The translations under genes were made by a program, and so were the position numbers. Under the pieces are notes generated by a model. That model was not told the origin of the DNA, ran no database searches, and was given only the letters and a program-made list of their open reading frames with translations. From NCBI GenBank assembly GCA_017434885.1, contig JAFSGE010000043.1, forward strand, positions 1 through 47,628: a stretch of 47,628 bases of DNA, written 5' to 3'. Source of the stretch: Lachnospiraceae bacterium. GTDB taxonomy: Bacteria > Bacillota > Clostridia > Lachnospirales > Lachnospiraceae. Positions 36,768 to 47,628 of this stretch are shown here, piece after piece; within the stretch, counting starts at the first letter, position 1; each line of letters starts with the position of its first letter.

Positions 36768-37100
36768 GTGGCAACAAGTAAAGACTATTTGAATTTTATA
36801 TTGGAGCAGTTGTCAGGTCTTGATGGAATTTCTTGCAGGAAAATGATGGGTGAATACATTATATATCATCATGGTAAAATTGCCGCATATTTGTGTGATA
36901 ACCGTCTATTGGTGAAGATTCTGCCAAGCACAACCGGTATGCTGCCGGATGCAAAAAAAGAAGCACCATACGAGGGTGCAAAAGAAATGCTTTTGGTTGA
37001 AGAAGTTGACGACAGAGAATTTCTGACAGAGCTGTTTCTGACGATGTACGAGGAACTTCCGATACTTAAGAAAAAGAATCAGAACAACTTGTTGGAATAA
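36768..37100 (+). CDS. TfoX/Sxy N-terminal domain protein
   Basis: The protein has 110 residues. ISCRKMMGEYIIYHHGKIAAYL and LLVKILPS are the TfoX_N core (landmark RKMMGEYIIYHHGK). TfoX/Sxy activates competence in Proteobacteria; in Firmicutes the short form has no assigned role. A GTG start at 36768 follows GGGAGG at seven bases, and the gene begins directly after the previous stop. It is the last gene before the cassette-like array. Confidence 0.85.
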   Translation: MATSKDYLNFILEQLSGLDGISCRKMMGEYIIYHHGKIAAYLCDNRLLVKILPSTTGMLPDAKKEAPYEGAKEMLLVEEVDDREFLTELFLTMYEELPILKKKNQNNLLE

Positions 37101-37135
37101 ATGGACTGTTGAATTTGAAATTGGAGGGAATAGAA

Positions 37136-37630
37136 ATGCGAATAAGACCTTATCAGAGTAAAGATTTTGACGTGATATCACAATGGATTACAGATGAGCG
37201 CTCGCATGCTTTATGGTGTGCCAATTTAATACCCTATCCATTGGAGAAAAATGGTTTTGATAATTTTTTGCAAGAGATAGAAGAACGATTTGGAGACAGC
37301 CCATTTGTTGCTACTACAGATGAGGGAAAGGCAGTTGGCTTTTTCTGTCTTTCCGTTAATTTGAATACAAATGAAGGAATGCTGAAATTTGTAGTGGTAG
37401 ATAATACGATAAGGAATAAAGGATATGGATGCGAAATGCTGCAATTAGCTGTAAAATATGCATTCGAAATAGCAAAAGCAGATGCAGTGCAATTGAATGT
37501 TTTCCCCGAAAATCCGGGTGCAAAGAAATGTTATGAAAAAGTAGGATTTAAGGAAAGAACATTAACAGAAAATGCATTTAGCTTTAAGGATGAATCGTGG
37601 GGCAGATGTAATATGATTATTACAAGATAG
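37136..37630 (+). CDS. GNAT-family N-acetyltransferase (array gene 1)
   Basis: The protein has 164 residues. Acetyl-CoA loop RNKGYGCEML, then LNVFPENPGAKKCYEKVGF. The ATG at 37136 follows TTGGAGGGAATAGAA, just after the junction motif GAATTTGAA at 37111. It is a distant paralogue of the GNAT at 45554 (shared R-P-Y start, KGYG-xx-ML and xxKxCYxxVGF pattern). Substrate unknown. Confidence 0.88.
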   Translation: MRIRPYQSKDFDVISQWITDERSHALWCANLIPYPLEKNGFDNFLQEIEERFGDSPFVATTDEGKAVGFFCLSVNLNTNEGMLKFVVVDNTIRNKGYGCEMLQLAVKYAFEIAKADAVQLNVFPENPGAKKCYEKVGFKERTLTENAFSFKDESWGRCNMIITR

Positions 37631-37664
37631 GAACTGCAGATTTTGAAATTATGGAGACATCATT

Positions 37665-37988
37665 ATGCTTGGAAATATTGTGAAAGTAGTTGTGGACAGA
37701 CCGTTAGGAAGCTACCATCCTAAATATAAAGATATATATTATCCTATAAATTATGGTTATATTGAAGGAATAATTGCGCCGGACGGAGAAGAACAGGATG
37801 CATATATTTTAGGTGTGGATGTGCCGGTGAAAGAATTTGTAGGAAAAGTAATAGCAATTATTCATCGGGATGATGATGTTGAAGAAAAGTGGGTGGTTGC
37901 ACCTGAAAATGTTTCTTTTACAAAAGATAAAATTATGGAGCAAGTCAGATTTCAAGAGAAGTACTTCAAATCAGAAGTCAGAATGTAA
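37665..37988 (+). CDS. Short inorganic pyrophosphatase-like protein
   Basis: The protein has 107 residues. YPINYGYIEGIIAPDGEEQDAYILG matches the core of family I soluble pyrophosphatase (landmarks YPINYGYI and DGEEQDAYIL). The normal D-G-D-P-L-D core reads D-G-E-E-Q-D, so one acidic metal ligand is Glu and the protein is only about 60 percent of the usual length. Activity toward pyrophosphate is uncertain. The upstream junction is GATTTTGAA with GGAGA. Confidence 0.75.
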   Translation: MLGNIVKVVVDRPLGSYHPKYKDIYYPINYGYIEGIIAPDGEEQDAYILGVDVPVKEFVGKVIAIIHRDDDVEEKWVVAPENVSFTKDKIMEQVRFQEKYFKSEVRM

Positions 37989-38041
37989 AATCTTGTTTGC
38001 AAATATTGGATAATATGAATTTAAAAATTGGAGAAAAAAAT

Positions 38042-38581
38042 ATGAAATCTTTACAAAAAATTCAAAAGACATGTGGAGTCTTTCAAGTTTTAACAAAGGT
38101 AGCCACGACTCTATGCTTTGTTGGCTCAGGCTTGCTGCTTGTCGGAATGATTTGCGGCATTGTTATTTCCGGTACAGGAGCAGTTATTTCAGAGGGAAAG
38201 GAAACTCTGTATAAATTGACCGCATCAGGATCCTTTTATGAAATGACAGGTACGCTTCTGGTGGATTTTATAATTACCCTGACGAATGCTATCCTGTTTT
38301 TGCATGCCTATCGGTATTTCAGCGTAGAACAGGCTGATGGTACTCCTTTTTCCTTGAAAGGTGCGGGTTTGATGAAACGCTTGGGTATTCTGCTGATAGT
38401 CCTTCCTGCGGTGGAAGCAATTCTGGTAGCTATAGTGCAAGGTATTTTTGAACTTTCTCAAAATGATTTTTCCGATATTGGTAATGGAACAAGTGTCATG
38501 ATGGGTATCATGCTAATTCTGATTTCTATGATTCTCAGTTACGGAGCTACTTTGGAGCAAGGAACTCAAATACATGAATAA
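38042..38581 (+). CDS. Four-helix membrane protein of unknown function
   Basis: The protein has 179 residues with four hydrophobic segments at about 20-45, 72-92, 108-130 and 145-170. The start MKSLQKIQKTCGVFQ is basic and cytoplasmic. No family is recognised; relatives of similar look are annotated DUF2975-like. Junction GAATTTAAA at 38017 and GGAGA lie ahead of the ATG. Confidence 0.65.
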   Translation: MKSLQKIQKTCGVFQVLTKVATTLCFVGSGLLLVGMICGIVISGTGAVISEGKETLYKLTASGSFYEMTGTLLVDFIITLTNAILFLHAYRYFSVEQADGTPFSLKGAGLMKRLGILLIVLPAVEAILVAIVQGIFELSQNDFSDIGNGTSVMMGIMLILISMILSYGATLEQGTQIHE

Positions 38582-38614
38582 GCATGTGCTTATTTAAAGT
38601 TGCGGAGGTTAATG

Positions 38615-39232
38615 ATGCACATAACATTATTCACAGATAACATAGATGAATATTTGAAAGAAGATAGTGTGATAGATTTCGGAAACGAAAGCATTGTGCG
38701 GCTTGCAGATGCCTTATATCAAAAAGCAGACAGTGAAGCGGAGTACATAAAAAAGGTATATGAATTTGTAAGAGATGATGTTTCACATTCGGCAGATGTA
38801 AACAAGGATGTAATAACCTGTTCAGCATCAGAGGTTTTAAAAGCAGGACATGGGATTTGTTTTGCAAAGTCGCATTTGTTGGCTGCTTTGTTACGCTGTA
38901 AATCTATTCCAACCGGTTTTTGTTATCAAAAATTGATATTGGATGACGAAACAGCTCCTGTTTTGATATACCACGGATTAAACGGAGTATATATCAGTGA
39001 ATATCAAAAGTGGGTACGCCTTGATGCCAGGGGAAATAAAGAGGGTGTAAACGCACAATTTTCAGTAGAGGAAGAACATCTTGCTTTTCCTGTTCGTGCT
39101 GAAAAAGGTGAGAAAGATGGTTTTACAATTTATCCTAACCCGGATAAAAAGGTTTTAGAGCGATTGAGAAAATATAAGACAAGGACAGAACTTTGGAATG
39201 ATTTGCCAACCGACTTGGATTATATTTCATAA
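38615..39232 (+). CDS. Transglutaminase-like cysteine protein
   Basis: The protein has 205 residues. A complete transglutaminase-core triad is visible: Cys in KAGHGICFAKSHLLAALLR (landmark GHGICFAKS), His in YHGLNGVYI and Asp in WVRLDARGNK. There is no signal peptide, so it acts in the cytoplasm as a peptidase, amidase or transferase. The ATG at 38615 has GGAGG at six bases. The upstream junction is degenerate (TATTTAAAG). Confidence 0.82.
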   Translation: MHITLFTDNIDEYLKEDSVIDFGNESIVRLADALYQKADSEAEYIKKVYEFVRDDVSHSADVNKDVITCSASEVLKAGHGICFAKSHLLAALLRCKSIPTGFCYQKLILDDETAPVLIYHGLNGVYISEYQKWVRLDARGNKEGVNAQFSVEEEHLAFPVRAEKGEKDGFTIYPNPDKKVLERLRKYKTRTELWNDLPTDLDYIS

Positions 39233-39264
39233 TACAATTTGAAGTTGATGGAGGGAATATCACG

Positions 39265-39720
39265 ATGCAGAATATAATTATGCAACCTATTGGATGTGTT
39301 AAAAATTGTATTGAAAATAAAAAGGATGTTTCATGGGGAGAAGATGTTTCTACAATTATGTTGGGCGAAGAATATTATACAGGACTGAAAGGACTTGAAG
39401 ATTTTTCACATGTAATAGTTATTTACTATTTGGATAAAGCAAAATATGAAAAAGAGAAGCATCTGCAGAGAAGACCTCAAAATCGTGAAGATATGCCATT
39501 GGTAGGTATCTTTTCACAGAGGGGAAAGGATAGACCGAATACAATAGGTATGACATCTGTTGAAATTGTTTCGGTGGGTGAAAAGTCAATAACAGTAAAA
39601 GGGTTGGATGCCATTGATGGAACGCCTGTATTAGATATTAAGCCATACTATCCTGCTTATGATAAGAAAGATGCATATGTACCAGAATGGGTTACGAGGC
39701 TGATGGAACATTATTTTTAG
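39265..39720 (+). CDS. trmO: TrmO-family tRNA methyltransferase
   Basis: The protein has 151 residues in the UPF0066/TsaA/TrmO family, which uses SAM to methylate N6-threonylcarbamoyladenosine at position 37 of tRNA. The landmarks GIFSQRGKDRPNTIGMT and DGTPVLDIKPY are intact. Related short copies are frequent in accessory regions, so it may modify something other than tRNA. Junction CAATTTGAA and GGAGGG lie upstream. Confidence 0.85.
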   Translation: MQNIIMQPIGCVKNCIENKKDVSWGEDVSTIMLGEEYYTGLKGLEDFSHVIVIYYLDKAKYEKEKHLQRRPQNREDMPLVGIFSQRGKDRPNTIGMTSVEIVSVGEKSITVKGLDAIDGTPVLDIKPYYPAYDKKDAYVPEWVTRLMEHYF

Positions 39721-39738
39721 GATATGCTTATGTTGAAA

Positions 39739-39782
39739 ACGTTTAGTAAGTCGGTGGGTTTAGCAGAGATTCGAATTTGAAT
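39739..39782 (+). repeat. Junction element, copy 1 (CAGTAA-CGGTG-CTGAGA type)
   Basis: ACGTTTAGTAAGTCGGTG then GGTTTAGCAGAGATTC leads into GAATTTGAA. It aligns base for base with 42411-42453 and 45043-45085: shared core YAGTAARYCGGTG and T-Y-A-R-C-W-GAGA. The arms TAAGTC and GGTTTA can pair. Confidence 0.65.
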
Positions 39783-39806
39783 TGGCAGCAGAGAGGATGT
39801 TCGTAA

Positions 39807-40250
39807 ATGTACAACTTTAAGAGAATCGGAATGAATGAAATTGAGGCCATAAAAGAGTTATTTACAAGTGTATTTACAATCGAACCATGGAATGATGATT
39901 GGTCAAACAAAGAACAGTTGGATTTGTATTTGTCTGATTTGGTGGGACAAAGTAATTCATTGGCATATGGATTGTTTGAAGATGAAAAATTGATAGGTGT
40001 TTCTATGGGGCATATTAGGCATTGGTATTCCGGCACTGAATATTATATTGATGAGTTATGCATACAGACAGATAAGCAAGGAAATGGTATTGGAACTTAT
40101 TTTCTGAAAGAAATCGAAAGAGGAATAAAAGAAATTGGTTTAGCACAAATTTTTTTGCAAACAGAGAGTAATGTACCTGCTTATGGCTTTTATCAGAAAA
40201 ATGGATTTTGCGAATTGAAGGAGCATGTATCGTTTGCAAAACGAATATAG
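39807..40250 (+). CDS. GNAT-family N-acetyltransferase (array)
   Basis: The protein has 147 residues. ELCIQTDKQGNGIGTYFL holds the acetyl-CoA loop QGNGIG, and AYGFYQKNGF is motif B. The ribosome site GAGAGGATG is ten bases from the ATG. Junction GAATTTGAA lies at 39773. Substrate unknown. Confidence 0.87.
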   Translation: MYNFKRIGMNEIEAIKELFTSVFTIEPWNDDWSNKEQLDLYLSDLVGQSNSLAYGLFEDEKLIGVSMGHIRHWYSGTEYYIDELCIQTDKQGNGIGTYFLKEIERGIKEIGLAQIFLQTESNVPAYGFYQKNGFCELKEHVSFAKRI

Positions 40251-40314
40251 TGCAGGGATATAACAACACAGAGAAGAATTTGAAGTTGATGGATGAAAAG
40301 AGGTAAGGAATTAC

Positions 40315-40596
40315 ATGGATTTTACAACGATTACAGCTTGTGGAGAATGTTGTGTAGGATGCAAGAAAAAAGAAGATGGTATTTGTCAAGGATGTATAGA
40401 GTCAGATGGACATTGTGTGGAATGGGAGCAATCTAATGGTTGCCCAATACATAAATGTACAAGAGAGCATAATGTGCAATTCTGTGGATTATGTAAAGAA
40501 TTTCCGTGTGAATGGCTGACTCAAAAAGTTGTTTGGCGGCAAAATGTAGTAGAAGAATTAACAGAATTAGCAAATCTATATCGCCAACAGAATTAG
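40315..40596 (+). CDS. DUF3795 Cys-rich protein (array)
   Basis: The protein has 93 residues with 13 Cys (CGECCVGCKKKEDG, CQGCIESDGHC, CGLCKEFPCEW), the DUF3795 pattern. A zinc- or Fe-S-binding role is likely but the family has no assigned function. A second member lies at 43993. The junction upstream is GAATTTGAAGTTGATGG. Confidence 0.85.
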   Translation: MDFTTITACGECCVGCKKKEDGICQGCIESDGHCVEWEQSNGCPIHKCTREHNVQFCGLCKEFPCEWLTQKVVWRQNVVEELTELANLYRQQN

Positions 40597-40629
40597 ACAA
40601 ATTACAGTAATACTGAATGATAAATTTGT
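40597..40629 (+). repeat. Compact attC-like hairpin directly after a stop codon
   Basis: ACAAATT (40597-40603) pairs with AATTTGT (40623-40629), and inside it CAGT (40605-40608) pairs with ACTG (40612-40615). The outer 3' arm is the array's junction motif, so here the motif has a visible inverted partner. Confidence 0.6.
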
Positions 40630-40652
40630 GCAATAGAAACGGAGAACGCAAA

Positions 40653-41249
40653 ATGAAAATATTGATATTAATGGGAAGCCCCAGACTTCACGGAAATACC
40701 GCCGAACTGTGCAAGCATTTTATGGAGGAACTGAAAACGCAAAATGCCGAGGTACAGTACATCGAACTTGAAAATAAAACAATCACTCCTTGCAAGGAGT
40801 GTTATGTCTGTCAGGATGTATCAGGAGAGTATGGTTGTTCACAAAAGGATGATATGACAGAAATAGCAGAAAAGATTTTGTGGGCAGATACTGTTATTTT
40901 GGCAACTCCTATTTTTGCCTGGTATTGTACAGCAAAGATGAAAGCAGTGCTTGACCGCCACTATGGCTTTAATAAATTTTATGGTAGCGCGGAAGGATGC
41001 CTTTGGGAAAATAAGAAAGTCGGTATTATTGCAACTCATGGGTATGAGGGAGATTATGCAACTGAACCTTTTGAAGTGGGTGTAAAGAGGTTGTGCATTC
41101 ATTCTAACCTGAAATACATCGGCATGTATTCCGTGCAGGATAGCGATAATCTTGCTTCTTTTCGGACCACCGAAGCGGTAGAGGGGGCGAAAGCCTTTGC
41201 ACGTAAAGTAATGAAAGAAGAAACCTTGGGAAAAAATGACAGAGAATAG
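40653..41249 (+). CDS. NADPH-dependent FMN reductase / flavodoxin-fold protein
   Basis: The protein has 198 residues with a flavodoxin-like fold. The FMN phosphate loop is GSPRLHGNTAEL, then CKECYVCQ and GCSQKDDM, typical of the NAD(P)H-dependent oxidoreductase group with a Cys-rich loop, and TPIFAWYCTAKMK. GGAGAACGCAAA precedes the ATG at 40653. Confidence 0.88.
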   Translation: MKILILMGSPRLHGNTAELCKHFMEELKTQNAEVQYIELENKTITPCKECYVCQDVSGEYGCSQKDDMTEIAEKILWADTVILATPIFAWYCTAKMKAVLDRHYGFNKFYGSAEGCLWENKKVGIIATHGYEGDYATEPFEVGVKRLCIHSNLKYIGMYSVQDSDNLASFRTTEAVEGAKAFARKVMKEETLGKNDRE

Positions 41250-41280
41250 GAATATTAAGTCAATTAGGAGAAAAACCGGT

Positions 41281-41739
41281 ATGAATGCAAAAGCATTACT
41301 GGTAGTTGATGTTCAGGAAGAATATATGAAAAGATATGAAGAAGGCTTGCTGAAACGCATTAATCAACGAATTGGAAAGGCTGTAGAAGATAGGGAACTC
41401 ATAGTCTATATAGAAAATATCAAGATGCTTAGGCTTGCGGAGAAAAAAAGCCCATTTGCTACCGGGTTATATATTGCGTCTCCCTATGTGTTCAGCAAAA
41501 AGAAAGCCAGTGCATTTTCGAATGCGGAGCTAGTGAATTTCTTAAAAGAAAAGGGGATAACCAACCTTGAAATAATCGGTGTAGATGGTAATTATTGCGT
41601 GCTTGGTACTGCTAAAGAAGGCAAAAAATACTTAAATAGTGTGAGTGTAAATTGTAATTGTGTTGGGGCAATGAATAACCAACGGTATGAAAAAACAAAA
41701 GAAACACTTAGTAAATTAGGAGTGGAAATTTTGAATTGA
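41281..41739 (+). CDS. Isochorismatase-like cysteine hydrolase
   Basis: The protein has 152 residues. Catalytic Asp10 in LLVVDVQEEY, a Lys in KKKASAF and Cys106 in GVDGNYCVLGTA complete the isochorismatase-fold triad. The family includes nicotinamidases and N-carbamoyl hydrolases. The ATG at 41281 has TTAGGAGAAAAACCGGT. The upstream junction lacks the AATTTGAA motif; the downstream one overlaps its stop codon. Confidence 0.87.
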   Translation: MNAKALLVVDVQEEYMKRYEEGLLKRINQRIGKAVEDRELIVYIENIKMLRLAEKKSPFATGLYIASPYVFSKKKASAFSNAELVNFLKEKGITNLEIIGVDGNYCVLGTAKEGKKYLNSVSVNCNCVGAMNNQRYEKTKETLSKLGVEILN

Positions 41740-41754
41740 GCGGTGAACTAAGAT

Positions 41755-42411
41755 ATGAAATTGATAGAGAAAGGAAATACTGCAGAAATATATGAGTATG
41801 GAGATAATTTAATATGCAAATTGTTCTATCCTCAATACCAGACAGATTATATTGAGCATGAGTTCCATAATGCAACTATGGCATGGGAATTAGGAATAAG
41901 AACACCAAAGGCTCATAGGATTATCGTGGAAGACGGGCGTCAAGGCATTATTTATGACCAAATTGTTGGAGAAGTACTTTCTGTTAAATTTTCTGAACCA
42001 AGCGAACCGGCATATGATGTGTGGATGAACAGGTTTGTTGATTTTCATAAACAGTTAATGCAATACAGTATAGATGATGCTATCTCTTATAAAGACTTTT
42101 TGAAAATGTTTGCAACGGATGAAGAAACAATTGCAAAAATCAACGCATTAGCTGATGGTAATTGTTTTATTCATGGTGATTTTCATATGGAAAATGTGAT
42201 GCTTGATGAGAATAACGAAATAGTGCTTATTGATATGATGAATGTATGCAAGGGCACGGCGCTGTATGATGTTGCAAGAACATATTTTTTGTTAAGTTAT
42301 GACAATAAAATCCAAAGCAAATACTTGGAAAAGATGGGATACTCTGTAAAGGATATTATGCCGTATTTAGAGGTGATTTTATCAGTTAGAGAGAATGAAA
42401 TGAAGAGATAA
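41755..42411 (+). CDS. APH-fold phosphotransferase (array)
   Basis: The protein has 218 residues. The catalytic loop HGDFHMENVML and metal site VLIDMMNVCKGTALYDVART are complete. It is shorter than usual APH proteins (around 260-300) because of a compact N-terminal lobe (KGNTAEIYEYGDNLICKLF). Small-molecule kinase of unknown substrate. Confidence 0.85.
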   Translation: MKLIEKGNTAEIYEYGDNLICKLFYPQYQTDYIEHEFHNATMAWELGIRTPKAHRIIVEDGRQGIIYDQIVGEVLSVKFSEPSEPAYDVWMNRFVDFHKQLMQYSIDDAISYKDFLKMFATDEETIAKINALADGNCFIHGDFHMENVMLDENNEIVLIDMMNVCKGTALYDVARTYFLLSYDNKIQSKYLEKMGYSVKDIMPYLEVILSVRENEMKR

Positions 42412-42453
42412 CGTTCAGTAAACCGGTGTGTTTAACTGAGAGATGGATTTGGT
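42411..42453 (+). repeat. Junction element, copy 2
   Basis: TCAGT (42415-42419) AAAC (42420-42423) pairs with GTTT (42430-42433), an unpaired A, and ACTGA (42435-42439). The nine-base-pair hairpin with one bulged base is followed by GGATTTGG. A bulged base is also a feature of folded attC sites. Confidence 0.65.
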
Positions 42454-42466
42454 GGTGATAATTATA

Positions 42467-43093
42467 ATGATAGTCGGAGTGATTCAGGCAAGTTCACAGA
42501 CAAATAAAAACAGTATTTTATTTGATGCTGTAAAGGAATATGCTACAGGACATGAAGTGGTTAATTTTGGTTGTTTTCCGGATGATATCATAAAATTTTC
42601 ATATATTGAGATATCAATAGAAATAGGTATTCTTCTTGCAAGTAAAGCTGTTGATTTTGTTGTGACAGGATGTTCATCTGGACAGGGAATGATGTTGGCA
42701 TGTAATAATATGCCCGGAGTTATCTGCGGATATGCGCCCACACCTAAGGATGCATACTTATTTGCACAAATAAATAATGGAAATGCTATTTCTTTACCTT
42801 TAGGCGAAGAATACACCTACTCCGGAAGTGAAAATTGTAAGAAAACGATTGAAATGTTATTTTGTGAATCGTTTGGACAGGGATATCCTAAAGATCAGTC
42901 AGCGAGAAAAATTAGTGACGCAAAATTGCTTAAGTCTGTAAGAGAAAAGTCTCAAGTAGATTTTATTACGCTATTGGAAAGACTTGATGATAATTTGATT
43001 ACAAAAGTTTTACAAAAGAACAATGTGTTTGATTATGTCCTAAATAATGGTACTGACATTACTATTATTAATTGGATTAAGCAACACATATAA
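42467..43093 (+). CDS. RpiB/LacA/LacB-family sugar-phosphate isomerase
   Basis: The protein has 208 residues. TGCSSGQGMMLACN corresponds to the RpiB active-site loop with its Cys. A C-terminal extension of about 60 residues is typical of the longer family form. The protein begins MIVGVIQASSQTNKN. The ATG at 42467 follows GGTGGTGATAATTATA; the ATG at 42443 lies inside the junction and would place hydrophobic junction-coded residues at the N-terminus, so it is rejected. Confidence 0.83.
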   Translation: MIVGVIQASSQTNKNSILFDAVKEYATGHEVVNFGCFPDDIIKFSYIEISIEIGILLASKAVDFVVTGCSSGQGMMLACNNMPGVICGYAPTPKDAYLFAQINNGNAISLPLGEEYTYSGSENCKKTIEMLFCESFGQGYPKDQSARKISDAKLLKSVREKSQVDFITLLERLDDNLITKVLQKNNVFDYVLNNGTDITIINWIKQHI

Positions 43094-43134
43094 TATTAGC
43101 CTGCATGGAGAGCCTGATAAAAAGAGAAAGCTTT

Positions 43135-43215
43135 GAATTGAGCGAGCTCTTTTGCGAGCGATGACAATTAAACAAAGTTCAATTGTATGGGAAAGAGAGA
43201 ACAATAAATTTGAAG
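43135..43215 (+). repeat. 81-bp repeat, copy 1
   Basis: The first 66 bases differ from 46155-46220 at only two positions. It holds the direct repeat GCGAGC, a palindrome CAATTaAAC-aaa-GTTCAATTG with one mismatch, and ends five bases later in AAATTTGAAG. CTTTGAATT at its left edge can pair with AATTTGAAG at its right edge. Confidence 0.8.
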
Positions 43216-43229
43216 AGGTGAGGATAGAT

Positions 43230-43874
43230 ATGAAAAATACAAATTTGTCTATTATTTTTGATTTGGATGGAACCCTTTGGAATTCTACAGGTTGTGCATG
43301 TGATATTTGGAATCGAGTGTTGGAAAAGCATAATGATATTTCGTTTAGAATGACAAAGGAAAAAGCGGAGCAATTGATGGGAAAGACAATGGAAGACATT
43401 GGAAAAATACTTTTTCCAGAACTTAATACTGAAGAAAGAAACGCGATTGTTGATGAATTTGGAGATGAAGAAGTAAAGTATTTAACAGAAAATGGTGCAG
43501 TTTTATATGAAGGACTTGAAGATACACTGAATCTGTTGAGTCAACAATATAAATTGTATATTGTAAGCAATTGTCAAGATGGATATGTTCCTGCTTTCTT
43601 GCATGCACACAAATTAGAAAGATATTTTACTGATATAGAAATGTCTGGACGTACAGGTCTGGATAAGGGTAATAATATTAAATTAATAATGAAAAGAAAT
43701 AATATAGAATCAGCGGTTTATATTGGAGACACAGATGGAGATGAAAAAGCGGCTCGTTTTGCGGGCATTCCGTTTATCTATGCAAAATATGGTTTTGGAG
43801 AAGTTATATCACCAGACGCTATAATTGAAAATATTAGTGAATTGCCTGAACGTATAAAAAATGGGGTAAAATAG
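43230..43874 (+). CDS. HAD-family phosphatase
   Basis: The protein has 214 residues. HAD motif I FDLDGTLWNS, motif II VSNCQDGY and motif IV YIGDTDGDEKAARFAG are intact, with an alpha-helical cap between about 20 and 85. It resembles phosphoglycolate or beta-phosphoglucomutase-type phosphatases. The ATG at 43230 follows GAGGTGAGGATAGAT; an in-frame ATG at 43161 lies inside the repeat and lacks a ribosome site. Confidence 0.87.
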   Translation: MKNTNLSIIFDLDGTLWNSTGCACDIWNRVLEKHNDISFRMTKEKAEQLMGKTMEDIGKILFPELNTEERNAIVDEFGDEEVKYLTENGAVLYEGLEDTLNLLSQQYKLYIVSNCQDGYVPAFLHAHKLERYFTDIEMSGRTGLDKGNNIKLIMKRNNIESAVYIGDTDGDEKAARFAGIPFIYAKYGFGEVISPDAIIENISELPERIKNGVK

Positions 43875-43992
43875 ATTAAATAAATCAACAGCAAATATGT
43901 CTATAAATAACAATTTTCCAAACACTTGAAAATTTCAGTCTTGTGGAGAGATTGAAAGCACGCATGAATTTGAATTTTAAGGAGAAATGTTT

Positions 43993-44367
43993 ATGAAAAA
44001 AGAACTTGGTATTGCCCGTTGTGGATTAGCATGTTGCCTGTGTTCTGAAAATGAACATTGCGGTGGCTGTGATTCCGGAAATTGCCCAGATACAGAATGG
44101 TGTGAAAATAGAAAGTGTTCGATAGAAAAAAATATTGATAATTGTTTCCTGTGTGAAGAGAATTGTAGGAAGGGACTCCTTGCAAAGACTAAACCTTATG
44201 GGTTTACTTTGTTTGCCAAAAGATATGGTATTGATACTTTAATCAACCGTCTCGAAGAAAATGAGAAAAATGATATAGTTTATCATCGACAGGGAATTGT
44301 TGGAGACTATGATGATTTTGATGATGTCGAAGAGCTTATTCGATTCATACAAACAGGTAAGCGTTAA
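43993..44367 (+). CDS. DUF3795 Cys-rich protein (array)
   Basis: The protein has 124 residues and begins RCGLACCLCSENEHCGGC, with later CENRKCS, CFLCEENC, giving the DUF3795 pattern. It is longer than the member at 40315 and not a recent copy. The ATG at 43993 is eight bases from AAGGAGA. The 118-base gap before it has the hairpin TTTCAGTC / GATTGAAA and the junction GAATTTGAATTTT. Confidence 0.85.
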   Translation: MKKELGIARCGLACCLCSENEHCGGCDSGNCPDTEWCENRKCSIEKNIDNCFLCEENCRKGLLAKTKPYGFTLFAKRYGIDTLINRLEENEKNDIVYHRQGIVGDYDDFDDVEELIRFIQTGKR

Positions 44368-44415
44368 ATTTGAAGCTTATGAATAATTCAGATAAACAAT
44401 GAAAGGGAGTTCACG

Positions 44416-45042
44416 ATGGAATTTTTTGAAGTAATCGACAAAAGAAGAACAGTCCGAGATTTTGAAAACGAAAAAATATCACAGGTTGTTATAGAAAAAA
44501 TAATTGGGGCAGCACTGAAAGCTCCAACAAATGACCATATGCGTGATTGGCATTATATAGTAATTCAGAATAGGAATACAGTAATGAAGCTTCTTGATAT
44601 TATTCCTAAAGGTATTTCCGATGAAGACATGGAACAACTTATAAGGGATTGGAATTTGAGTGACAATGAACAGCAGAACGCCTACAGAGATGCTGTGCCC
44701 AAACAACATAAAATGCTAATGGATGCTTCGGTTGTTGTCATTCCTCTACTAAAGCAGAAAACTGATATTCTTCATCCCGACAATATATCACATCTTAATG
44801 GTTTCGCCTCAATTTGGTGTAGTATTGAAAACTTATTCCTTGCTTCGACTGCCGAAGGATATGGTTGTACTCTGCGAATTCCACTTGGCAATGAGGGGGA
44901 GTATGCAAAAGAGATGCTTGGTTTTCCGGATGATTACTTTATGCCCTGTTTTATTGGAATAGGTAAGCCAAAGAAGAATGCATCAGTCATAAAGCAGAAG
45001 AATATTGATGTCAAAGAGCGTATTCATTGGGATAATTGGTAA
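44416..45042 (+). CDS. Nitroreductase-family flavoprotein
   Basis: The protein has 208 residues. The nitroreductase start IDKRRTVRDFENEKIS and KAPTNDHMRDWHYIVI bind FMN; SIENLFLASTAEGYGCTLRI is the second FMN region. The junction motif AAATTTGAA overlaps the previous stop, and a 48-base gap separates it from that gene. GGGAGTTCACG precedes the ATG. Confidence 0.88.
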   Translation: MEFFEVIDKRRTVRDFENEKISQVVIEKIIGAALKAPTNDHMRDWHYIVIQNRNTVMKLLDIIPKGISDEDMEQLIRDWNLSDNEQQNAYRDAVPKQHKMLMDASVVVIPLLKQKTDILHPDNISHLNGFASIWCSIENLFLASTAEGYGCTLRIPLGNEGEYAKEMLGFPDDYFMPCFIGIGKPKKNASVIKQKNIDVKERIHWDNW

Positions 45043-45090
45043 ACTTTCAGTAAGCCGGTGCAATCAACTGAGAGATGAACTTGAAATTTA
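45043..45090 (+). repeat. Junction element, copy 3
   Basis: TCAGT (45047-45051) pairs with ACTGA (45067-45071), with GC-cggt-GC inside. GTAAACTT just before it (from 45039) can pair at seven of eight bases with AAATTTAC (45083-45090), which overlaps the junction motif GAACTTGAA. Confidence 0.65.
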
Positions 45091-45104
45091 CGGAGGCGTT
45101 AGTA

Positions 45105-45506
45105 ATGAGACTTGACGGATTTGGATTGTTTGTAGAAGATATGGCAACTATGATTCGCTTTTATAGAGATGTTTTGGGCTTTGAAATCAAAGAAGGTGAA
45201 GATATTTCAAATGTATATTTGATTAAGGATGATACATTATTCCTTTTGTACGGAAGAAGTGACTTTGAGAAAATGACAAGCCGCAAATATGAATATATAA
45301 AGGGACTCAATGGCCACGCAGAAATTGCATTGTATGTTGATACTTTTGAAGAGGTGGATGCTGAATATGAAAAAGCCATAAGTAAAGGTGCTGTTTCTGT
45401 ATTAGAACCCGAAACAGAACCTTGGGGACAAAGAACCTGTTATATTGCAGACCCAGAGGGAAATCTGATAGAAATTGGTTCTTTTAATAAGCCTTTTAGA
45501 AGTTAA
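45105..45506 (+). CDS. VOC-family (glyoxalase-like) protein
   Basis: The protein has 133 residues. Two beta-alpha-beta-beta-beta units: FGLFVEDMATMIRFYRDVLGFEI and HAEIALYVDTFEEVDAEY, closing with CYIADPEGNLIEI whose Glu is a usual metal ligand. VOC proteins include dioxygenases, lyases and antibiotic-binding proteins. The ATG at 45105 has CGGAGG upstream. Confidence 0.87.
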   Translation: MRLDGFGLFVEDMATMIRFYRDVLGFEIKEGEDISNVYLIKDDTLFLLYGRSDFEKMTSRKYEYIKGLNGHAEIALYVDTFEEVDAEYEKAISKGAVSVLEPETEPWGQRTCYIADPEGNLIEIGSFNKPFRS

Positions 45507-45553
45507 AGTTGAAACGATAGCAACAAAAGAGTTGGATTTGGCGAGGTGAATTT

Positions 45554-46084
45554 ATGCTAAGATTAAGACCATATCGAAAGAATGATAGTCACAAAATAGT
45601 AACTTGGGCTCAAGATGAGAACACATTTTATAAATGGAGTGAAGGCAGACTTGGCGGTTTTCCTGTTTCGGCAGAACGTATGGAACAGGCAGTTTCCGGA
45701 AGAATAGATAATGAAAAATATTTTCCGTTTGTTGCTTTTGATGAAGAGGGAATAGAAGGTTTTTTTACCCTTCGCCAACCTGGAGAAGCAGCAGGTGAAT
45801 TAAGCTTCGGATATGTAATTCTGAGTCCTGAAGCAAGAGGAAAAGGCTATGGAAAACAAATGTTGCAGTTAGGCATCAAATTTGCATTTGAACTTTACGG
45901 TGCGTCGAAAGTGACATTGGAGGTTTTTGAGAATAATCCAAGTGCGTATCATTGTTATAAATCGGTTGGTTTTATTGAGAATGGTAATAGCACGATTTAT
46001 AATTTATGTAATGAAGAGTGGAAAAGCATAGAGATGGAGATTTGCCAATTTCAGTCGTGCAAAGAGAATGAAAACAACATATGA
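45554..46084 (+). CDS. GNAT-family N-acetyltransferase (array)
   Basis: The protein has 176 residues. Acetyl-CoA loop ARGKGYGKQML, then NNPSAYHCYKSVGF. It is a paralogue of the GNAT at 37136, so the array holds related but diverged members. GAGGTGAATTT precedes the ATG; junction GGATTTGG lies at 45534. Confidence 0.88.
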   Translation: MLRLRPYRKNDSHKIVTWAQDENTFYKWSEGRLGGFPVSAERMEQAVSGRIDNEKYFPFVAFDEEGIEGFFTLRQPGEAAGELSFGYVILSPEARGKGYGKQMLQLGIKFAFELYGASKVTLEVFENNPSAYHCYKSVGFIENGNSTIYNLCNEEWKSIEMEICQFQSCKENENNI

Positions 46085-46108
46085 TTTGAAGTTATATAGG
46101 AATAATTT

Positions 46109-46258
46109 ATGCAAAAACCGTCTTACGAACAGGCTGAAAGGCAAGAGAAAATTAGAATTGAGCGAGCTCTTTTGCGAGCGATGACAATTGAACGAAGTTC
46201 AATTGTATGGGAAAGAGAGATTAACAAATTTGAAGCTTACGGAGGTTTTATGATATGA
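46109..46258 (+). CDS. Mini-ORF spanning the second 81-bp repeat
   Basis: The frame encodes 49 residues from MQKPSYEQAERQ through the repeat-coded ERALLRAM and ends on ATGA at the next start codon. It is flanked by junction motifs on both sides (46082 and 46226), so it could be a very small cassette or a non-coding one. The repeat is conserved at DNA level with amino-acid changes in the other copy, which argues against a functional peptide. Confidence 0.25.
   Translation: MQKPSYEQAERQEKIRIERALLRAMTIERSSIVWEREINKFEAYGGFMI
46155..46235 (+). repeat. 81-bp repeat, copy 2
   Basis: Second copy of 43135-43215. Here the inner palindrome CAATTGAAC-gaa-GTTCAATTG is perfect (nine base pairs). It ends in AAATTTGAAG at the same distance as copy 1 and leads directly into the ribosome site of the next gene. 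Confidence 0.8.
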
Positions 46259-47010
46259 AGATTCTTGAATTTGGTGATACAAGTAAAAGTAAAATCATTC
46301 TGATACATGGCTTCCAGTGCCCTTGGCAAGTATGGAATAAATACATAGAGTATTATAAGAATAAGTTTCATATCATTGTGCCTATTATGTCAGGACACAA
46401 TCCTGAAGTTAAAGACGATTTTATTTCCTTTGCATCTGATGCAAAAGAAATCGAAGAATATATTCTTTCTCGCTACGGAAAAGAGATATATGCGGTGTAT
46501 GGAATGTCAATGGGTGGCGTGTTGACGGCAACTTTGTGGCAGAATAATAGATTATTCTTTGATAAAGTGATTTTTGATGGTTCGCCGTTAGTGTCTTATA
46601 ATTCATTTATGAAAGTATTTATGAAAAAATTTTATGTTGATATTACGCATAAATCACAGCAACGGGATAAGAAAACAGTGGAGCAGGCTACAAAAGTAAT
46701 TATTTCAGAAGATAATCTGGAATACTTTTTGAAAGTGCTTGATAATATGTCCGACATAACTGTAGAAAATAGTATAGATGGAATAGCTGATTTTAAATTA
46801 AGTCAGGGCATATATACTCCTGATACAGTGGTATATTTCTTTCATGGAACAGCAGTTAATGAAATGCTTGCAAAGAAATCTGCTAAGTTTGTTAAGAAAC
46901 ATTATCCGAACACAACAGTTAAATGTTTCAAAGGTAAATTTCATTGTGAAAATGCATTGTTTCATCCGGAGATTATGATTGAAGAACTAGATAAGATATT
47001 TGATAAATAG
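46255..47010 (+). CDS. Alpha/beta hydrolase
   Basis: The protein has 251 residues with an alpha/beta hydrolase fold. LIHGFQCPWQVW forms the oxyanion loop, nucleophile Ser85 lies in YGMSMGGVL, and the His in GKFHCENAL completes the triad. The acidic member is probably in the strand near VYFFHGTAVNE. Substrate unknown. GGAGG lies at 46241, with an overlapping mini-ORF ending in ATGA. Confidence 0.87.
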   Translation: MKILEFGDTSKSKIILIHGFQCPWQVWNKYIEYYKNKFHIIVPIMSGHNPEVKDDFISFASDAKEIEEYILSRYGKEIYAVYGMSMGGVLTATLWQNNRLFFDKVIFDGSPLVSYNSFMKVFMKKFYVDITHKSQQRDKKTVEQATKVIISEDNLEYFLKVLDNMSDITVENSIDGIADFKLSQGIYTPDTVVYFFHGTAVNEMLAKKSAKFVKKHYPNTTVKCFKGKFHCENALFHPEIMIEELDKIFDK

Positions 47011-47055
47011 AGATACGAATTTGAATTTGTCGAGATAGAAAAGGAGAATTATCAT

Positions 47056-47595
47056 ATGAGAATTGAAACAGAAAGACTCATAATACGAGATCTGGAAAGA
47101 AAAGACCAAGAGCAATTATATAAGATAGTATGGCAAAAGAATGTTGTACGTTTTATGAGAGATTGGTCCGAAAACAGTCCAAGTCCAGAATCTTTCGATG
47201 GGTATGTTGATTGGCATCAAACACAAAAAGATTCCATTGATGTATATGAATGTAAGAGATATGCAATTACACTTAAAAATGTAGATATACTTATTGGAAC
47301 AGTAGGTATGGGATTTGAAGATACAGTTTGTGAAGTAGAGATGGCCTATTTCTTGGATGAAGAATACCAAGGACATGGATATGCAACTGAGGCATTGATG
47401 GCGTTGTTTGATTGGTGTATGGAGGTATCAGACTTAAAATATATGATACTTACAATTGACTGCGCAAACGAGGCTTCTTGCAAAGTTGCAGAGCGAGCAG
47501 GATTTGAATTGTTTGAAAAGAGATATCCAATAAATCATACGCAACCAAACATGGAAAGCGATTGCTATTATTACTACCGTAAATATAGAAGATAG
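47056..47595 (+). CDS. GNAT acetyltransferase, RimJ/RimL type
   Basis: The protein has 179 residues. It begins MRIETERLIIRDLERKD, the RimJ/RimL-type start, with acetyl-CoA loop EYQGHGYATEAL and ANEASCKVAERAGFEL. The family acetylates ribosomal proteins, amino acids or antibiotics. AAAGGAGAATTATC precedes the ATG. After its stop the junction motif CAATTTTAAG at 47601 suggests that the array continues beyond the window. Confidence 0.9.
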   Translation: MRIETERLIIRDLERKDQEQLYKIVWQKNVVRFMRDWSENSPSPESFDGYVDWHQTQKDSIDVYECKRYAITLKNVDILIGTVGMGFEDTVCEVEMAYFLDEEYQGHGYATEALMALFDWCMEVSDLKYMILTIDCANEASCKVAERAGFELFEKRYPINHTQPNMESDCYYYYRKYRR

Positions 47596-47628
47596 ATATA
47601 CAATTTTAAGGTGATTTGATAAATTAAA

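Follow-up and report, generated by a model that had tools for sequence, protein, structure and literature searches.

Among the described systems, those closest to the locus reported here are integrons and the clusters of attC sites lacking integron integrases (CALINs). In attC sites as described in PMC2727003 the R boxes pair and exchange takes place within R′. The account of the Firmicutes given with IntegronFinder 2.0 (PMC9024848) lists one complete integron and a few CALINs, and PMC8618304 presents off-target insertion by the integrase IntI as one proposed origin of CALINs. We have analysed a stretch of 47,628 nt, referred to below in its full length as the window, from a Lachnospiraceae bacterium (GenBank assembly GCA_017434885.1, contig JAFSGE010000043.1; contig C38 of a draft genome of 3.1 Mb in 58 contigs, 94.5% complete). 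Between positions 37101 and 47595 the window carries 18 genes on the plus strand, 282–756 bp long (start codons were picked by eye), in an array that reaches the contig end. Comparison of sequences suggests, with a probability of about 0.55, that this region is an array of mobile cassettes, mostly single-gene, which a trans-acting enzyme would move at TTTGAA cores. Among the open literature matches listed there was no report of such arrays in Lachnospiraceae; most subscription journals and bioRxiv lay outside the scope of that search.

A preliminary description of the window, made from its letters, had proposed a cassette array of 18 genes of 0.3–0.75 kb on one strand, with an exact motif at nine junctions and variants at ten further sites. 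The gene number, strand and lengths hold, and so does the exact count: AATTTGAA is present at 9 of the 18 junctions (37112, 39236, 39774, 40277, 43207, 43967, 44367, 46227 and 47018), whereas junctions shuffled 1000 times with dinucleotides preserved gave a mean of 0.40 and never more than 5. Its reverse complement occurs at none of the 18 junctions, and neither strand of the 26 gaps before 36.7 kb contains it, in agreement with the earlier remark that gene starts in the first 29 kb lack the motif. The ten variant sites could not be reproduced as such; near variants were found in the spacers of four junctions, namely TTTGAA (junction 2), TTTAAA (junctions 3 and 4) and CTTGAA (junction 15). At junction 10, TTTTGAATTGA overlaps the stop codon of the upstream gene. 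Two counts speak against the motif: its number in the whole window (13 vs 8.3 expected) was reached by 11 of 100 shuffles, and one copy (37358) lies within a gene. Since the raw window count is not significant, it is the placement and strand of AATTTGAA that make it a notable feature.

The 8-nt motif forms the 3′ core of a more extended, hairpin-bearing site, which the preliminary description had not noted. Three longer kinds of element, A, B and C, recur at the window junctions. The B and C types (∼50 nt) have in common a 5′ AAMTTTCAG arm, a stem, a short linker and ATTTGAA followed by KTT; the C-type stem is CTTTCAGTC / GATTGAAAG with a linker of 8–9 nt, and the B-type stem is CTTTCAGT / ACTGAGAG, with an extra base seen by eye on the 3′ arm. 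The A type is longer (∼85 nt) and has two hairpins, with paired changes between species noted by eye. A fourth type, D, was found outside the window; it ends in the same core after a different stem, GCGTTCAATC / GATTGAACGC. By eye, both arms of this stem have changed together in a homologous unit from another genus (GTGTTC / GAACAC). Among 38 C-type sites, 10 of 11 tested stem positions were paired in 35–38 sites and the outermost in 18, a count that overstates the support because the expression used for selection fixes several of those letters.

A sequence-only model, R1, was built from 12 sites. At the permissive threshold of E ≤ 0.1 it matched 23 of 37 genomes of the genus, with 18 matches in the source genome; matches under 1e-5 occur in genomes G000, G012, G013, G016, G017 and G026 (genomes, contigs and loci are numbered G, C and L). 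The searches of the family and the class used stricter filters, with 13 candidates scored per genome. In the family, 31 of 397 genomes (31 of 334 genera) had a match at E ≤ 1e-4, 11 of them with at least two; in the class there were 3 of 391 genomes, which are the source genome, G063 of the same family and one genome of another family with a weak match (1.6e-5). The spacing can be that of one gene, as in contig G407:C5, where four sites lie 505–806 bp apart, and in G321:C77, with three sites ∼560 bp apart. The exact A-type pattern was found in 19 stretches among 84,980 species genomes, a set from which the source genome may have been excluded. All 19 are in metagenome-assembled genomes (MAGs) titled Lachnospiraceae, Clostridiales, Clostridia, Clostridium, Roseburia or Oscillospiraceae, and 11 of the titles name deer, goat or buffalo gut. 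Collections of plasmids and phages gave no match to the one C-type site searched. By hand count, 19 of the 29 family loci L145–L173 lie within 3 kb of a contig end, vs ∼8.5 expected from the lengths.

For the statistics of the B and C types we used 66 distinct sites collected with nhmmer (E ≤ 1e-3; the 12 training sites included, copies counted once) from loci fetched for their sites or for related genes. Where the neighbouring gene was readable, site and upstream gene shared a strand in 56 of 62 cases, site and downstream gene in 52 of 60. Only two of the 66 sites fall inside an open reading frame (ORF) of at least 100 aa, in sequence of which 75% is coding. The small genes thus stand in one orientation, each with a following site, though the full site is absent at some junctions.

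Enrichment of the core is seen beyond the window. TTTGAA[GT] was found near gene starts in other arrays of the source genome (8/41), of the genus (10/46) and of other genera (18/49), vs 2/148 near the starts of ordinary genes; the limits of these arrays were drawn by eye, and several of the arrays had been located through the site itself. When genes behind a recognised A, B or C site were removed, 6/37, 8/43 and 7/36 remained (p from 9e-4 to 1e-4 against 2/148). In the array of G016:C25, which was located by gene and not by site, the count was 8/33 (p 2e-5).

Comparison of genomes shows that units of one or two genes (295–839 bp) are ∼91–99% identical across genomes labelled as different genera. 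A 753-bp pair identified by sight as antitoxin and Doc, 90.7% identical between the source genome (L012 14393–15141) and G407 of another genus label, begins around GTTGAATTTA, which lacks an exact core, and ends at the exact core GATTATTTGAA. A membrane-protein unit of 839 bp is shared by G407 and G067 (93.2%), with 3′ sites of the same type but diverged. G067 and G207 share 604 bp (92.2%) from the core on, and the site above it is of D type in one genome and of B type in the other. A block at 98% identity in G013 and G257 starts from AAATTTGAATT, with an A-type element in front only in G013, and G151 and G207 have 352 bp in common at 99.1%, up to a contig end. The MAG titled Roseburia at locus L133 and genome G205, which may be close kin, share 388 bp at 99.7% from AATTTGAATTT; the copies differ in what precedes them, an A-type element in one case and a C-type site in the other. 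As this homology (comparison X133/G205) ends on its 3′ side at AAACTT, which is the 5′ arm of the site, the 5′ arm may be a second exchange point. Two window genes have relatives in other genomes as well: the DUF3795 gene has its relative in G257 directly downstream of a C-type site, with DNA homology confined to the gene except for the shared core, and the G016 relative of the transglutaminase-core gene is followed by the same AATTTGAAGTTG as in the window.

Homology often stops at the core. The shared blocks (at least 85% identity over at least 150 bp) made 32 segments with 49 internal ends. An exact core lay within 12 nt of the end in both copies at 9 of the 49 (null 0.3%), at seven of them within 4 nt; counting ends where one copy or both had it, the number was 23 (null 11.8%).

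Gain and loss at junctions could be followed in G026 and G015, which are 93–97% identical. They differ by ∼3.5 kb holding five genes around three A-type elements, by a second block of ∼3.4 kb, and by one G015 gene that is absent from G026. The first join in G015 falls within an isochorismatase gene, at TTCGAA/TTGACC, where G026 has TTTGAA. Different arrays also stand behind the same gene in two species. A YbaK-like gene (by sight) is followed by arrays in G000 and G016, in which 33 and 35 genes were counted in the stretches read; the two have two genes in common (at least 50% identity over at least 70% of the length), a RhuM-like gene (95% protein identity) and a dehydrogenase gene (78%), in opposite order. 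In the source genome array-like segments also follow rimM (contig C15) and lie beside prfA (C11), and in G236 sites were found after prfA; these genes were named by sight. Within or near array segments of the source genome there are three places with a repeat GTCCTACTAAGATG... of ∼54 bp period (L008 9500–9755, L012 14031–14285 and L009 18415–18728). Tandem repeats of 53 and 61 bp were also seen near C-type sites, at L115 8512–8896 (G016) and L116 10726–10952 (G013).

We propose that a cassette would start directly after a TTTGAA core, carry its own ribosome-binding site and gene, and end with a junction site; the full junction site would consist of a small hairpin, a linker of 8–9 nt and the next TTTGAA core. 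We infer a site-specific recombinase, acting in trans, that would be guided by the hairpin and would join cores by an exact cut at the boundary of TTTGAA and KTT or close to it. Cassettes would be excised and inserted singly, in one orientation. The arrays lie behind chromosomal genes, which may drive transcription of the arrays, so that the cassettes would be co-transcribed, and short A-type elements would act as ORF-less cassettes. It is possible that the moving enzyme is encoded on a mobile element, or that it is a housekeeping one. The suggestion in the preliminary description that this might be another cassette-collecting system is well supported by the cross-genus units, by homology that often ends at the core, by the differing arrays behind the same gene and by the enrichment of the motif in other arrays. 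Neither of the observations that it had named as contrary to a cassette array was made: gene order is not conserved, and the motif was found upstream of 2 of the 148 ordinary genes tested.

Several results weigh against mobile cassettes moved at the core. At more than half of the homology ends (26 of 49) neither copy has an exact core within 12 nt. Of the nine both-copy ends, one (L165/L166) coincides with the border of a mobilisable element, and in another (L066/L070) TTTGAA lies where a conserved gene ends. The segments are not all independent, as several were obtained by three-way comparison, and with random positions as the null, homology that stops at the core cannot be told from homology that stops at a junction. 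Conservation of the gene without that of the hairpin region was seen in several pairs (X133/G205, ending at AAACTT, and G407/G067 with its diverged sites), so that the hairpin does not simply travel with the gene. At junctions 8, 9, 10, 11 and 16 the spacer contained none of the six words searched, and the fold energies of the 66 B/C sites are weak to modest (mean z −0.8). Of the 31 family genomes, 20 gave a single R1 match, which in three cases lies on one and the same mobilisable element; most of the genomes are drafts, with many sites close to contig ends. Finally, no recombinase tracked the sites among the IntI, IS91-linked, Y1 and Xer-like enzymes, in a search that did not include serine recombinases.

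IntI (TIGR02249) was not found over the cut-off in the source genome, at its 94.5% completeness, or in eight other site-bearing genomes, and the matches below threshold are present in 14 of 14 control genomes as well. The IS91-linked tyrosine recombinase (E ≤ 1e-30) showed no association with the sites: 6 of the 36 genomes with sites had it, and 1 of the 23 without; the Y1 transposase (Y1_Tnp) was detected in 8 of 18 site-bearing vs 7 of 12 site-free genomes and is therefore absent from 10 of the 18. An Xer-like recombinase of 351 aa is probably a housekeeping enzyme, as 58 of 59 genomes have it, whether or not they carry sites. Among 85 proteins adjoining sites no recombinase was seen in the 25 commonest Pfam families (of 102), GNATs being the most frequent with nine. 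A recombinase of 306 aa at G000:C26 had one close relative (G257, 69%) among the proteins compared.

A fuller form of the cassette proposal, which we regard as tentative, would place the system outside the integron lineage: the Lachnospiraceae would share a pool of small cassettes across the family, moved in trans by an HUH-type or undescribed enzyme that acts on hairpin and TTTGAA core. Arrays would assemble by themselves, because the end of a cassette would equal its target, and ORF-less mini-cassettes and mobilisable elements would carry sites between genera. An HUH-type reaction is conceivable here, since the stem does not include the core, whose variable base has no association with the 5′ arm: in the 49 of 66 sites readable for both, the combinations of 5′ AA[C/A]TT with 3′ AA[G/T]TT numbered 10, 14, 8 and 17 (p 0.56).

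An explanation without site-specific recombination would take the hairpins and TTTGAA as RNA-level signals for operon spacing, ribosome loading or processing, with genes spread by ordinary transfer and junction repeats serving as microhomology. The core stands directly upstream of the Shine-Dalgarno sequence at many junctions, the A-type hairpins have paired changes by eye, and homology ends near stop codons without a core are common, all of which would suit such signals. Still, ordinary genes almost never have the motif upstream (2 of 148), and the A-type element beside one member of a 98% identical block is missing beside the other. Unrelated contexts meet within a few nucleotides of the core, leaving ∼7–12 shared bases, which is short for RecA; a purely RNA-level reading leaves this joining of unrelated contexts at the core unexplained, and we consider it unlikely.

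Single-strand transposition of the HUH type, by itself, appears improbable. It would make the units non-autonomous elements whose right end (hairpin, linker and TTTGAA) equals the target, mobilised in trans by a Y1 (IS200/IS605-like) or Y2 (IS91-like) enzyme, each insertion creating a new target. The right ends of IS200/IS605 elements and Helitrons have a geometry similar to that of hairpin, linker and core; here the core lies outside the hairpin, 8–9 nt 3′ of it, and an in-gene TTTGAA stands at a join in G015/G026. On contig G000:C18 (L076 1150–3678) an IS91-type transposase and its linked tyrosine recombinase adjoin array-like genes, with similar IS91 elements on G067:C10 and G067:C66, both of which have R1 matches. 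A hairpin of ∼100 nt can form (by eye) at the C18 end, but as it is common to the G067:C66 element it belongs to the end of IS91 itself. The counts of Y1_Tnp and of the IS91-linked recombinase given above do not favour either enzyme, and a conserved left-end hairpin was not noticed, though no dedicated search for one was made.

The least probable explanation is a relict of a true integron, with degenerate attC sites placed by an IntI that was lost, left unassembled or resident in another cell: the layout, the one-orientation genes, the hairpin-bearing 3′ sites and the integrase-less arrays would fit a CALIN arising by off-target insertion (PMC8618304), but GTTRRRY occurs in 0 and RYYYAAC in 2 of the 66 sites, the 5′ arm and 3′ core are not associated, the top strand is more stable than the bottom one in 53 of 66 sites, no IntI passed the cut-off, and PMC9024848 describes integrons as extremely rare in Firmicutes. 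In the strict sense the 'non-standard integron' of the preliminary description finds no support, with no IntI over the cut-off, no attC boxes and no association of 5′ arm and 3′ core; its observation that canonical attC boxes and an integrase among the array genes are lacking was borne out.

The window array encodes four GNATs and proteins with transglutaminase core, TrmO_N, DUF3795, FMN reductase, isochorismatase, phosphotransferase, LacAB/RpiB, HAD, nitroreductase, glyoxalase and alpha/beta hydrolase matches in Pfam, one of them slightly below the cut-off; three of the 18 genes have no Pfam match. Table 1 gives the coordinates of the features. Relatives of the TfoX_N gene that precedes the array adjoin C-type sites in other genomes (L118 and L152). 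The listed ORF start at 45075 falls within a B-type site, so that the real start of the downstream gene is probably 45105. Two similar-looking small cysteine-rich genes, the DUF3795 gene (40315–40596) and a Pfam-less gene (43993–44367), occur in this one array. In the last 19.6 kb of the window the single Rfam match was an S15 leader, far under the gathering score.

Table 1. Coordinates of array genes, junction sites and related features in the window
Feature	Position	Strand	Remark
Candidate cassette array, 18 small head-to-tail genes	37101..47628	+	Cut by contig end
TfoX_N gene	36780-37100		May be first array member
First exact AATTTGAA core, junction 1	37112..37119	+	
Transglutaminase-core gene	38612..39232	+	Relatives at 74-75% DNA identity in two other species of the genus
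B-type site (hairpin and ATTTGAA core)	39736..39792	+	R1 match E 1.7e-7; R1 training sequence
DUF3795 gene	40309..40603	+	94.2% identical to G257 gene (labelled another genus)
B-type site, stem about CAGT-AAAC / GTTT-A-ACTG	42408..42463	+	R1 E 7.4e-8; fold; R1 training sequence
A-type element, two hairpins flanked by two cores	43132..43215	+	Putative ORF-less mini-cassette
HAD hydrolase gene	43230..43874	+	81% DNA relative in G016 array after YbaK-like gene
C-type site, best R1 match in source genome	43928..43986	+	E 9.3e-14; R1 training sequence
B-type site	45040..45095	+	R1 E 2.7e-9; R1 training sequence
C-type site, overlaps GNAT gene end	46045..46099	+	R1 E 8.1e-8; R1 training sequence
A-type element, second copy	46152..46235	+	93% identical
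GNAT gene, last whole gene	47056..47595	+	76% DNA relative in G017

Some neighbours of the sites in other genomes were recorded as well. On contig G067:C10 (L179 4144–4600) a C-type site gives way directly to the 3′ end of a group II intron (RF00029), where an intron-protein remnant was recognised by sight; another ATTTGAA comes after the intron end. A DUF3800-XI RNA was found at L189 4753–5246 (G122:C49), a contig that also has a C-type site; downstream of the RNA comes a short ORF, by sight possibly a DUF3800 fragment. The Rfam matches at 11 other loci (truncated group II intron, DUF3800-XI RNA, riboswitch and tRNA) were judged to lie outside the system. An element common to L250 237–8883 (G063:C62), L251 and L252, with integrase-like and mobilisation-like genes by sight, recurs over ∼8.5 kb at ∼99.95% identity in three genomes that carry different genus labels. 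On it a C-type site is flanked by an ABC-F ribosomal-protection-like gene and a Lnu(C/D/P)-like gene, both of which score under the curated cut-offs.

If the cassette proposal is true, the Lachnospiraceae, a major gut family, would have a route of their own for trading small genes, and the cassette pool could explain gene turnover and assembly breaks in the family. The sites reach about one tenth of the sampled family genera (31/334), and the C-type site between two resistance-like genes on the element in three genomes labelled as different genera places sites near medically relevant genes too. The question of which enzyme moves cassettes without an integron integrase is thereby made testable.

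With IS200/IS605 elements, IS91 and Helitrons, whose ends are taken here as generally described, the sites share a subterminal hairpin set a short, constant distance away from a cleavage-like 3′ end, and possibly the identity of end and target. They differ from HUH elements in that the Y1 and IS91-linked genes are not associated with the sites and that no recombinase is among the commonest families of site-adjoining proteins. The A-type elements, geneless and placed between two cores, resemble the ORF-less integron cassettes that PMC6557892 describes from oral Treponema, although they are not bounded by attC. From integrons and CALINs the system differs in the lack of IntI over the cut-off in the nine genomes searched and of R″/R′ boxes; in a core that lies outside the hairpin and is not associated with the 5′ arm, with no R″–R′ pairing at the foot of the folded site; in one core common to several hairpin types; and in arrays at several loci behind chromosomal genes (rimM, prfA and YbaK-like, by sight). 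An attI-integrase platform was not seen either, in an analysis without a dedicated search for attI. What the system has in common with integrons and CALINs is the head-to-tail order of small cassettes in one orientation, their unrelated accessory functions (GNATs, hydrolases and nitroreductases), the hairpin-bearing site 3′ of the gene, sharing across species and ORF-less members. By the features tested the array is not an integron, yet it behaves like an integron cassette array.

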